Assembly (NCBI GenBank): GCA_025210965.1
Contig: JAOAQY010000073.1
Location: 1 to 46,754 of the forward strand
Reading direction: 5' to 3'
DNA length: 46,754 nt
From: Tissierellales bacterium
GTDB lineage: Bacteria; Bacillota; Clostridia; Tissierellales; JAOAQY01
In this document: positions 26,942-31,790 of the stretch, piece by piece
Position numbering within the stretch: position 1 is the stretch's first letter
How the letters are laid out: each line of letters opens with the position of its first letter
Notes under the pieces: model-generated
What the model was told of the DNA's origin: nothing
Seen by the model: the letters and a program-made list of their open reading frames with translations, nothing else
The model's database searches: none
Translations under genes and position numbers: made by a program

Positions 26942-28399
26942 ATGAAACTAGGTGTATTTATTCAAAAAATTTATAAAGATTCTTTATCAGAGCTCATTAG
27001 AGCTCTTTTTACTGATGATGAGTATGTATTGGTCGAAGATTTAAAGGAAATGGAAAAATTTAATGAGCGTTTGGATATCGATATAGACAATAAAAATATA
27101 AGTGTTACGCTAACTATTGGAGAACAAAAATATATCAAAACATTGAATATTAGCAAACAATTTTCTGAAATAATTTTGAAAGAAAGAAGCAGTATTAATT
27201 TTTATGTAAAGAAATTATGCTATGAGCATATAACAAAATACTATGGCAGAATATCACCTTGGGGAATATTGACTGGAGTTAGACCAGTAAAATTAGTTCA
27301 CAAAATGAAACGCGAAAACTGGGCAGATGATCGTGTAATAGATGAACTTTGTCAAAAATTTTTAGTGTCTATAGAAAATGCGGAACTCATATCAGATATA
27401 GCTAATAGAGAATTAAAGATTATAAATGATTCTAAAGGGAAGGCGAGTTTGTATATTAGTATACCATTTTGTCCTAGCAAATGTGTTTATTGCTCTTTTC
27501 CGACTCATGTATATAGTAAATGGAAACATCTGGAGAACGAATATATAGATGCATTGTGCGATGAAATTGAAAGATTTTCAAAGTATATAAAAGAACCTAT
27601 TCATACAGTTTATATAGGCGGAGGCACCCCCTCTTCTATAACTAGAAAATCAATTAAGCAAATGCTAGAGGCTATAGAGAATAATGTGAATTTGTCAAAT
27701 GTGATAGAGTTTACATATGAAGCTGGAAGACCGGATACTATAGATGAAGAATTGTTAATGATGCTAAAAAAATATGGAGTAACTAGGTTGAGTATAAATC
27801 CTCAGACTTTTAATGACGAAATTCTAAAGAAAATGGGACGCACTCATTCTGCGAAGTCTATAGTGTATGCTTATAATTTAGCTAGAAAATATGATTTTGA
27901 TATAAATATGGATTTGATATTAGGATTGCCAGATGAGGATGCAGAGAGTTATAGAATTACTTTAGAAAAGATTATAGAGCTCTCGCCAGAAAATGTTACG
28001 ATACATTCGTTAGCTATAAAAAGAGCTGCGGAGCTGAAACATTTTATAAGTAAATATAGTTTTATGGAGTCTAAAACGATAGAGAAGCTCGTAGAAGAAA
28101 GTTTAGACTTGCTGAGTAGAGAAGGGTATAGCTCGTATTATCTTTATAGACAGCAACATATCAGTGGAAATTTAGCGAATATTGGCTATGCTAAGGAGCA
28201 CAAAATGGGAATTTATAATATATTGATGATGGAAGAGGTTCATCCGATATATTCTTTTGGAGTTGGAGGAGTTTCTAAGATATTTGAAAGTGAAAAAAAC
28301 AAATTCAAATCTGTTCCAAATTTTCGAGATATAGTGCCTTATTTGGAGCGATTTGAGGAGATGTTAGAGAAGAAAATAGAAATCTTGACAAATAATTAA
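26942..28399 (+). CDS. hemZ: coproporphyrinogen dehydrogenase-like radical SAM protein HemZ
   Basis: A 485-residue radical SAM protein of the HemN/HemZ group. An N-terminal domain of about 165 residues, characteristic of HemZ, precedes IPFCPSKCVYCSFPTH with the cluster cysteines at 177, 181 and 184. YIGGGTPSS and a later INMDLILGLPDED are conserved. Members are named for oxygen-independent coproporphyrinogen oxidation but many act otherwise. No other haem genes lie nearby. Its last codons contain the -35 box of the next operon's promoter. Confidence 0.88.
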   Translation: MKLGVFIQKIYKDSLSELIRALFTDDEYVLVEDLKEMEKFNERLDIDIDNKNISVTLTIGEQKYIKTLNISKQFSEIILKERSSINFYVKKLCYEHITKYYGRISPWGILTGVRPVKLVHKMKRENWADDRVIDELCQKFLVSIENAELISDIANRELKIINDSKGKASLYISIPFCPSKCVYCSFPTHVYSKWKHLENEYIDALCDEIERFSKYIKEPIHTVYIGGGTPSSITRKSIKQMLEAIENNVNLSNVIEFTYEAGRPDTIDEELLMMLKKYGVTRLSINPQTFNDEILKKMGRTHSAKSIVYAYNLARKYDFDINMDLILGLPDEDAESYRITLEKIIELSPENVTIHSLAIKRAAELKHFISKYSFMESKTIEKLVEESLDLLSREGYSSYYLYRQQHISGNLANIGYAKEHKMGIYNILMMEEVHPIYSFGVGGVSKIFESEKNKFKSVPNFRDIVPYLERFEEMLEKKIEILTNN

Positions 28400-28413
28400 A
28401 ACTGATTTATAAT
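28385..28413 (+). promoter_or_regulatory. consensus sigma-A promoter for the T-box hisS-aspS operon
   Basis: TTGACA (28385-28390), exactly 17 nt, then TATAAT (28408-28413): a full consensus match. The -35 lies inside the last codons of hemZ. Transcription should begin near 28420, just before the T-box stem I. Confidence 0.88.
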
Positions 28414-28424
28414 ACAATTTATAT

Positions 28425-28668
28425 ATGAAATGCAGAGAATAAGAATAGTAGTCTTGAAGTTTGTGTACAGCGATTTGACGTCGGTGAAAGGTCAAAGGCA
28501 ACTTGAGATGAAGGACACTTAGGAGCAGGTGATAGAATAAATATATCACACGTAAATCCGCGTTAAGGAGCGAATGAGTAGGATCTTTGATCTAAAAAGG
28601 GTGGTACCACGGGAGAAACTCTCGTCCCTGCAATTAAATTATTTAATTGTAGAGACGAGGTTTTTTTT
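28425..28668 (+). promoter_or_regulatory. T-box riboswitch upstream of hisS-aspS
   Basis: This leader of about 245 nt fills most of the 330-nt gap between hemZ and hisS. Stem I shows the GA-motif region (28433 on), the AG bulge near 28468, and an apical hairpin TTTGAC/GTCAAA closing a GGTGAAAGG-type loop. The specifier region on the 3' side reads GGACAC (28513-28518). The T-box core AGGGTGGTACCACGGG (28598-28613) with bulge TGGT pairs with the tRNA acceptor end. Uncharged tRNA would stabilise the antiterminator and permit hisS-aspS transcription. The overlapping GAC (Asp) and CAC (His) make the cognate tRNA ambiguous. Confidence 0.92.
28621..28668 (+). terminator. T-box terminator hairpin
   Basis: CTCGTC (28621-28626) pairs with GACGAG (28654-28659), and CTGCAATTAAA with TTTAATTGTAG inside it. 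The run of eight T (28661-28668) follows. It is the conditional terminator of the riboswitch. Confidence 0.9.
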
Positions 28669-28729
28669 GTTACCACAGAGTTTTGGATTCTAGATCAAAA
28701 AATTTTTAGAAAGAAGGAGGCGGCTATTT

Positions 28730-29998
28730 ATGAAATTAATCGCGCCAAAAGGAACACAAGATGTTTTGCCTAATGATGCGTATAAGTGGCATTATTTAGA
28801 AGAGCTTATCAGAGAAGTTTGTAGAGAGTTTGGTTATAAAGAGCTTAGAACACCTACATTTGAACATACAGAACTTTTTAAAAGAGGAGTAGGAGAGACT
28901 ACGGATGTTGTTCAAAAAGAAATGTATACTTTTGAGGATAAAAAAGGAAGAAGTATAACACTTAAGCCAGAAGGAACTGCACCAGTTGTTAGAGCTTATG
29001 TAGAGAGAAAATTAAGTGCAGGCCCACAACCAACTAAAGTTTATTATCTTACACCTTGCTTTAGATATGAAAGACCACAGGCGGGTAGAATGAGAGAATT
29101 TCATCAATTTGGAGTAGAGGCATTTGGAGCACAAGATCCAACGATAGATGCTGAGGTTATATCTATTGCTCATAGATTGTTTGAAAAGTTAGGACTTGAA
29201 AATATAGAATTAAATATAAATAGTATAGGATGTCCTAAGTGTAGGGCTATATATCACGAGAAATTAAAAGAATTTTTGAAATCAAAATTAGAAAACCTTT
29301 GTGGAACATGTAAAGAAAGATTTGAAACAAATCCTATGAGAATCATAGATTGTAAAGTAGAATCTTGCCAAGCTGAATTGACAGATGTACCACTTATGCT
29401 TGACTATTTGTGTGAAGATTGTGAGGAACATTTTGGACAGGTAAAAATGTACCTAGAAAGTATTGGAATACCATTTGTAGTGAATCCTAAAATTGTTAGA
29501 GGTCTTGATTACTACACTAAAACGGCATTCGAATTTATAAGTAAAGATATTGGATCACAAGGAACTGTTTGTGGCGGTGGTCGATATGATAAATTAGTTA
29601 AAGAAATTGGTGGTCCTGAAGTTCCGGGAATTGGTTTTGGAATGGGAATGGAGAGACTACTTCTAACATTGGATAATTTAGATATTGAGATTCCAAATGA
29701 AGAAACTGTTGATGTATTTGTTGTAACACTTGGTGAAAATGCAAGAAAAAAAGGTTTTGAAATAGTTTATAAGCTTAGAAAAATGGGATATGCAGCAGAA
29801 CTTGATCATTTGGCAAGAAGTGCCAAAGCTCAATTTAAATATTCAAATAAAATGGGTAGCAAGGTGAATTTGACACTTGGAGACCAGGAACTTGAGAGCG
29901 GTGTTGTAATGCTTAAAGATATGCAAAAAAGTGAGCAAAGTGAAGTTGAAATAAATAATATTTATGAAGCTGTTGAAGCAATATTAGGAGGAAAGTAA
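28730..29998 (+). CDS. hisS: histidyl-tRNA synthetase
   Basis: Class II aminoacyl-tRNA synthetase of 422 residues charging tRNA-His. Motif 1 lies in [16 protein letters not shown] and the following helix; motif 2 in [24 protein letters not shown]; and motif 3 in [20 protein letters not shown] is nearby and [13 protein letters not shown] is the HisA motif. A C-terminal anticodon domain ends the protein. A cysteine-rich stretch (CRAIYHEKL... CGTCKERF... CEDCEEHF) occurs around 170-240, as in many Firmicute HisRS. AGGAGG is upstream and the T-box controls it. Confidence 0.97.
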
Positions 29999-29999
29999 A

Positions 30000-31790
30000 A
30001 TGACAGAGAAAATGGGAAACTGGAGAAGAACTCACAAATGTGGTCTTCTTAGAGAAGAAAATATAAGTGAAGAAGTCATCCTTATGGGATGGGTTCAAAA
30101 AAGAAGAACATTAGGTGGCTTGATATTCGTAGATCTTAGAGATACAACTGGTATTTCACAGATTGTATTCGATACGGATATATCTAAAGAGGCTTTTGAT
30201 AAAGCAGAGGGCTTAAGAGGCGAATTTGTTATAGCTGTTAGGGGTACTGTAAAAGCTAGACAATCTGTTAATCTTGAAATGCCAACTGGTAAAATTGAAA
30301 TATATGCGAGTGAGCTTAGAGTTTTAGATACAGCACAAACTCCTCCAATTTACATTAAAAACAATGATGAAGTATCTGAACAAAAGAGATTAGAGTATAG
30401 ATATTTAGATCTTAGAAAATCAGAGATGCAAGATAAGCTTAAGATGAGACATAGAGCGTCAAACCTTATTAGAAACTATTTGGATGAAAACTGCTTTATC
30501 GAAGTAGAAACACCAATGCTTAATAAACCAACACCAGAGGGTGCACGTGACTATTTAGTTCCAAGTCGTGTGAATCCTGGTAAATTCTACGCTTTACCTC
30601 AATCACCACAGCTTATGAAGCAATTGCTTATGGTATCTGGAATGGATAGATATTTCCAAATAGTAAAATGCTTTAGAGATGAAGACCTTAGAGCTAATAG
30701 ACAACCTGAATTTACGCAAGTCGACATGGAACTTTCGTTTGTAGACATTGATGATGTAATAAATGTAAATGAAGGTCTATTGTACAGAGTGTTTAAGGAA
30801 CTTAAGGGTGTTGAAATTGAGCTTCCAATAAAGCGTATGCCTTATAAAGAAGCGATGGAAAGATTTGGTTCAGATAAACCAGATTTGAGATTTGGATATG
30901 AACTTAGGAATTTATCAGAAAACCTTAAAGAATCTGGATTTGGTGTATTCAAAAATACTATAGCAGAAGGCGGAAGTGTTAGAGCTATAAAAATAGATGA
31001 TGGAGCGGATGCTTTTAGTAAAAAACAAATCTCTAAATTAGAGAAATTTGTAAAAACGTACGGAGCAAAAGGACTAGCTTGGATAAAAGTTACAGAAGAG
31101 GGAATAGATTCTCCAATTGCTAAATTTCTTGGCGAAGAAGAAGTGAAATCAGTATTAGAATCAATGGAAGCTAAAGCTGGAGATATGATATTCATCGTTG
31201 CAGATAAAGATAGTGTTACATTTGATTCTTTAGGACATTTAAGACAGGAAATAGCTAAAAAGATGAATGTTATTGATCCAAATGCTTTTGAATTCTTGTG
31301 GATAACAGAGTTCCCATTATTTGAATATGATGAAGAAGAAGATAGATATGTAGCTAAGCATCATCCATTTACTCACCCAATGGATGAGGATATTGATCTT
31401 TTAGAAACCGAGCCAGAGAAAGTTAGAGCTAAGGCTTATGATATCGTAATAAATGGAGATGAAATTGGTGGAGGAAGTATCCGTATAAACAACTCAGAAT
31501 TACAAGAGAGAATGTTTACTGCTTTAGGATTTACTAAAGAAGAGGCGTGGGCTAAATTTGGTTTCTTGATGGAGGCGTTTAAATATGGAGTACCACCACA
31601 TGGTGGTTTAGCATATGGATTTGATAGATTGGTTATGCTTCTTACAGATAGTGATAATATAAGAGACGTTGTTGCATTTCCAAAGACTCAAGCTGCTACT
31701 AGCTTACTTACAGAGGCTCCAACAGGGGTTACTGAAGCGCAGCTCAAAGAATTGAGTATAAAATTGGATTTAGAAAAAGAAGAGAAGTAG
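30000..31790 (+). CDS. aspS: aspartyl-tRNA synthetase
   Basis: Class II synthetase of 596 residues charging tRNA-Asp (or Asp and Asn if nondiscriminating, which sequence alone cannot settle). The OB anticodon-binding domain opens [29 protein letters not shown]. Motif 2 is [20 protein letters not shown], motif 3 [11 protein letters not shown], and the bacterial GAD insertion spans about 290-420. It begins one nucleotide after the hisS stop, so the two form one T-box-controlled operon. Confidence 0.97.

Follow-up and report, generated by a model that had tools for sequence, protein, structure and literature searches.

The T-box leader in front of hisS-aspS in a Tissierellales bacterium probably senses tRNA-Asp

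When a single T-box leader precedes two aminoacyl-tRNA synthetase genes, and its specifier region contains an overlapping codon for the amino acid of each, the question arises to which tRNA the leader responds. This question is posed by a leader located in a contig of a Tissierellales bacterium (JAOAQY010000073.1, assembly GCA_025210965.1); the whole stretch of 46,754 nucleotides that was analysed is referred to here as the window. A first-pass annotation of this DNA had placed a T-box before hisS and aspS, had read GGACAC in the specifier region as an Asp codon (GAC) overlapping with a His codon (CAC), and had leaned towards Asp while suggesting that the overlap could allow both tRNAs to be read. 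The presence of the T-box is borne out by the Rfam covariance model RF00230, which matches positions 28426-28632 of the forward strand over its full length (model positions 1-219) with a score of 118 bits, above the curated cut-off of 93 (E 1.3e-25), and profile matches identify the downstream genes in the order proposed, hisS and then aspS. The features of the locus are as follows.

28385-28413, forward strand: sigma-A type promoter, TTGACA-17-TATAAT, 12 of 12 consensus matches, called on sequence consensus only
28426-28632, forward strand: T-box leader from stem I to antiterminator (RF00230, 118 bits)
28440-28443, forward strand: TAAG, 5' strand of the stem I helix below the specifier loop, which pairs with 28518-28521 (covariance-model alignment; the closing pair covaries across homologues)
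28447-28450, forward strand: AGTA box, 5' side of the S-turn (covariance-model alignment)
28510-28512, forward strand: GAA, 3' side of the S-turn, located 5' of the specifier (covariance-model alignment)
28514-28516, forward strand: specifier GAC (Asp), in the register in which the genome's other T-boxes carry theirs
28516-28518, forward strand: CAC, overlapping with GAC but out of register, with C28518 paired to G28443
28517, forward strand: purine A after the specifier (covariance-model alignment; role as in PMC7583486)
28518-28521, forward strand: CTTA, 3' strand of the stem I helix (covariance-model alignment and comparative pairing)
28602-28605, forward strand: antiterminator bulge UGGU, which pairs with tRNA NCCA; variable base U28605 (covariance-model alignment and folding)
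28622-28669, forward strand: intrinsic terminator hairpin (stem 28622-28658, -17.2 kcal/mol) followed by a U tract
28730-29998, forward strand: hisS, histidine-tRNA ligase (TIGR00442, 520 bits)
30000-31790, forward strand: aspS, bacterial-type aspartate-tRNA ligase (NF001750, 863 bits; TIGR00459, 794 bits)

The leader has the stem I with AGTA/GAA S-turn, the downstream stems, the antiterminator and the terminator that are common to the canonical long-stem-I T-boxes of RF00230, and no notable difference from these was seen. The two alternative folds are an antiterminator formed by AGGGUGGUACCACGGGAG...CUCUCGUCCCU (-11.1 kcal/mol) versus the terminator hairpin (-17.2 kcal/mol) with its U tract; a simple consensus scan for terminators did not list the 28622-28669 hairpin. 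The GGACAC noted previously is present at 28513-28518, inside a specifier loop that reads GAA(28510-28512)-G-GAC(28514-28516)-A(28517)-CTTA(28518-28521)-G-GAG(28523-28525), and two further details of the first-pass annotation, an A directly after GAC and a T as the variable antiterminator base in the bulge TGGT, correspond in the covariance-model alignment to A28517 and U28605, respectively. As for the genes, the model for the non-discriminating type of AspS (aspS_nondisc, TIGR00458) scores 240 bits against the aspS of the window, which is under the cut-off of that model. The same genome contains, at a contig end, a second HisRS-like open frame fragment (L125, G000:C119:4-387; 30% identity over 127 residues), which is possibly a HisZ- or HisRS-like paralogue.

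Covariance-model alignment, calibrated on the 20 other T-boxes of the genome, places GAC (28514-28516), an Asp codon, in the specifier position. In these other leaders, whose genes were named from their translations, the loop codon fits the downstream gene: AUC for ileS, GCA for alaS, CUC for leuS, AAC for both asnS and asnA, GUA for valS, AGA for argS, UGC for cysS and cysK, CCC for proS, UCC for serA, UCU for serS, AUG for metG, UGG for trpB and trpS, UUC for pheS, UAC for tyrS and ACU for thrS. The tyrS and thrS specifiers are shifted 5' by one base, away from the helix; the metG, tyrS and thrS loops were read by eye, the automatic parser having chosen a neighbouring frame, and the parse of one T-box, in front of a transporter gene (L007), is unreliable. 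Read in the same register, the specifier of the leader in the window is GAC. The second, overlapping codon is present at 28516-28518, two bases 3' of the specifier register, and the conserved stem I helix begins with its last C. It should be noted that the T-box database TBDB restricts its choice of specifier to the standard frame and those shifted from it by one base in either direction. The placement by covariance model that had been proposed as a check on the first-pass annotation thus puts GAC in register and CAC two bases off.

A sample of orthologous leaders allowed us to examine which of the two codons is conserved. It comprises 69 hisS leaders of order and class relatives with a T-box and a readable loop, distributed over 26 family-level groups, 21 of which leaders were read by hand. 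A collection scan for hisS yielded leaders mostly without a T-box, and in L148-L154, order-mates whose best HisRS match belongs to a different HisRS lineage (~30% identical), no T-box core was found within 420 bases upstream of that match. The specifier is GAC in 52 of the 69 leaders, AAC (Asn) in 13, CAC (His) in three and GGC in one, and covariance-model alignments confirm representatives of the GAC-G, CAC-A and AAC-A types. Nearly all 69 are leaders of hisS-aspS operons; of the 52 GAC loci, 49 have aspS at a distance of no more than 300 bases. The two bases after GAC are AC in 37 leaders, AT in eight, GC in two, GA in two, and GT, CT and CC in one each, and the seven leaders that have neither a CAC nor a CAT overlap come from six families. 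Hence, when GACAC is compared among homologous hisS-aspS leaders, as had been suggested beforehand, GAC is kept and the following AC is not; conservation of the second codon, by which we judge whether such an overlap is functional, was not found.

The pairing of the last base of CAC was analysed in 64 leaders. The first helix base forms the closing pair with a partner located four bases 5' of AGTA; 41 leaders have G-C at this pair and 10 have A-T, which makes it Watson-Crick in 51 of 64 leaders versus a mean of 38 after shuffling, a count that was reached in 0 of 5000 shuffles, which ignore the relatedness of the leaders. A shift of either strand by one base lowers the Watson-Crick count. These data support, rather than prove, the view that the last base of CAC would be held in the helix by compensatory change. 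Energy folding of stem I alone, in a model that has no S-turn or K-turn, failed to recover the known stem I and was set aside; comparative pairing was used for C28518.

The variable base of the antiterminator bulge provides another line of evidence. In agreement with the G73 and C73 that had been ascribed to tRNA-Asp and tRNA-His, respectively, tRNA-Asp of this genome has G73, as do its tRNA-Asn and the tRNA-Asp of relatives, and tRNA-His has C73 in every relative where it was located; the genome's own tRNA-His was not found in the draft assembly by two pattern searches, the first of which used a poorly designed pattern. U28605 matches G73 by a wobble pair only, and the genome's own asnS and asnA leaders (AAC) likewise have UGGU, together with a G73 tRNA-Asn. 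The bulge base of the 52 GAC leaders is C in 34, T in 17, A in one and never G, versus T in 54 and C in one of the leaders for Ile, Val, Leu, Arg, Phe, Pro and Ala (p 1e-13), the tRNAs of which we take to have A73. G, the partner of C73, occurs in none of the 69 hisS leaders; among the three CAC leaders, two have A at this position and one has C. The bulge base of the GAC leaders therefore fits G73 of tRNA-Asp and not C73 of tRNA-His. TBDB makes no discriminator matching for His T-boxes, because position 73 of tRNA-His can pair internally; given this exception, the discriminator evidence makes Asp more probable than His.

The suggestion that the overlap is read by both tRNAs would imply a two-codon T-box in which tRNA-Asp binds at GAC and tRNA-His, once the C28518-G28443 pair has opened, at CAC (28516-28518), such that both synthetases respond to either shortage. 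The precedent invoked for this is real: a T-box of a tRNA-dependent transamidation operon in C. acetobutylicum binds both tRNA-Asn and tRNA-Glu (Saad et al. 2013, summarised in PMC4052509). According to that summary it has, like the leader in the window, two overlapping codons in one specifier loop, but both tRNAs have been shown to bind to it, whereas here a single codon is in register and the overlap lacks conservation. Dual reading is also favoured by the bases behind the specifier, since AC follows GAC in 37 of 52 hisS leaders versus 20 of 60 other NNC T-boxes taken from the own genome and 12 relatives (p 7e-5; 14 of 19 by family majority, p 0.003), and follows AAC in 10 of 13 hisS leaders versus one of eight other AAC leaders (p 0.008). 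However, this background is uneven: ileS leaders with the specifier AUC (Ile) read ATCAC in 8 of 11 cases, as often as hisS leaders (p 1.0), and the CAC in them cannot be meant as a His codon. The asnA leader of the genome itself (L008) reads AACAC. Moreover, the excess of AC after AAC in hisS leaders is expected from common descent from a GACAC leader, although selection for CAC also fits, and shared ancestry of the hisS-aspS leaders accounts equally for the AC excess in general. Considering further that the third base of CAC sits in a covarying helix, that the codon lies beyond the frames that TBDB considers, that the overlap is missing from seven GAC leaders in six families and that the bulge base is never G, we regard a two-codon T-box as improbable here, and we are equally doubtful of dual sensing through a shifted register in which the AC excess had been selected for reading by tRNA-His. 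Reading by both tRNAs thus finds little support, and none as a conserved feature, and a tempting but weak dual-sensor claim is removed; the overlapping His codon would for the most part simply follow from the rules that govern the loop sequence.

It is also very unlikely that the leader is simply a His T-box, with CAC as the specifier and hisS as the intended target. This possibility is raised by the position of hisS as the first gene of the operon, by the hisS-aspS leader of S. aureus, which has been named a histidine T-box (PMC7927825), and by three relatives (L133, L139 and L144, from two families) whose hisS-aspS leaders truly use CAC as specifier. Yet the register in the window gives GAC, and these His-type relatives read GAA-CAC-A, unlike the leader in the window. 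Besides the wobble-only match of U28605 with G73, two observations count against the Asp reading: among the T-boxes of this genome no other specifier is clearly at odds with the first gene, which here is hisS, and no His T-box was found elsewhere in the draft genome, so that a His shortage would go unsensed at hisS. Wels et al. (2008) reported that a T-box in front of a synthetase gene invariably has a specifier that corresponds to the ligase, and also that some operons have a second synthetase gene behind a T-box of different specificity (PMC2494555).

The lean towards Asp is thus upheld by the placement of the specifier, by GAC being conserved where the AC behind it is not, and by the bulge base. 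Combining the observed leader anatomy, register, conservation and bulge statistics with known T-box biology, from which we infer binding and antitermination, we consider it very probable that the leader is a transcription-attenuating T-box with uncharged tRNA-Asp as its ligand. The anticodon GUC of tRNA-Asp would pair with the specifier GAC at 28514-28516, and A28517 would stack under the resulting duplex, a purine after the specifier having a known role (PMC7583486). The free 3' end of the tRNA, GCCA with G73, would pair with the bulge UGGU at 28602-28605, including a G73-U28605 wobble. This pairing is predicted to favour the antiterminator at the expense of the terminator (28622-28669), and hisS-aspS would then be transcribed when charging with Asp falls, hisS being co-regulated because it is on the same transcript.

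The GACAC motif of hisS-aspS leaders is already published: it has been described as characteristic, and a main interaction with tRNA-Asp has been suggested (Gutierrez-Preciado 2009, cited in PMC5313534). As far as they are described there, these leaders share with the leader in the window the operon, the GACAC in the specifier loop and the conclusion that it is mainly tRNA-Asp that is sensed; the leader in the window differs in its bulge base U and in its origin, a clostridial lineage with no other member of its family in the genome set compared. The label given to hisS-aspS leaders varies in the literature, from His for that of S. aureus to mainly Asp for others. Judged from sequence comparison, our data favour Asp in the majority of Clostridia, whereas some lineages have genuine His and Asn variants. 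A specifier that is mostly Asp means that the supply of HisRS in Clostridia would be tied to the charging of tRNA-Asp.

The variants indicate that the specifier of this operon is changeable. On the HisRS protein tree nine specifier changes are needed, of which at least seven are forced by well-supported branches; by this tree, the hisS-aspS specifier of Clostridia has switched between Asp, Asn and His codons on no fewer than seven occasions. The AAC specifier is found in 13 genomes of seven families (L180, L195, L196, L199, L202, L212, L218, L221, L227, L244, L255, L260 and L266), and a single family, f70, has AAC in two genomes and GAC in three. An association of AAC with genomes that have no AsnRS was considered and is not supported, asnS being absent from 5 of 13 AAC versus 5 of 26 GAC genomes (p 0.25). 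In family f10, L147 has GAC and yet the unusual bulge TGGA, which it has in common with two CAC leaders, its close relatives; this looks like a recent specifier switch. Covariance-model alignment places GGC in the specifier position of the hisS-aspS leader of L220 (about 290-310), the family mate of which, L207, has GAC. Switching among Asp, Asn and His within one operon would make drift of T-box specificity testable with natural variants. Finally, four loci (L026, L030, L039 and L058) that have no Rfam T-box match above the cut-off and no readable specifier loop carry the T-box bulge sequence GGGTGGNACCNCG upstream of hisS, and these are possibly divergent leaders.
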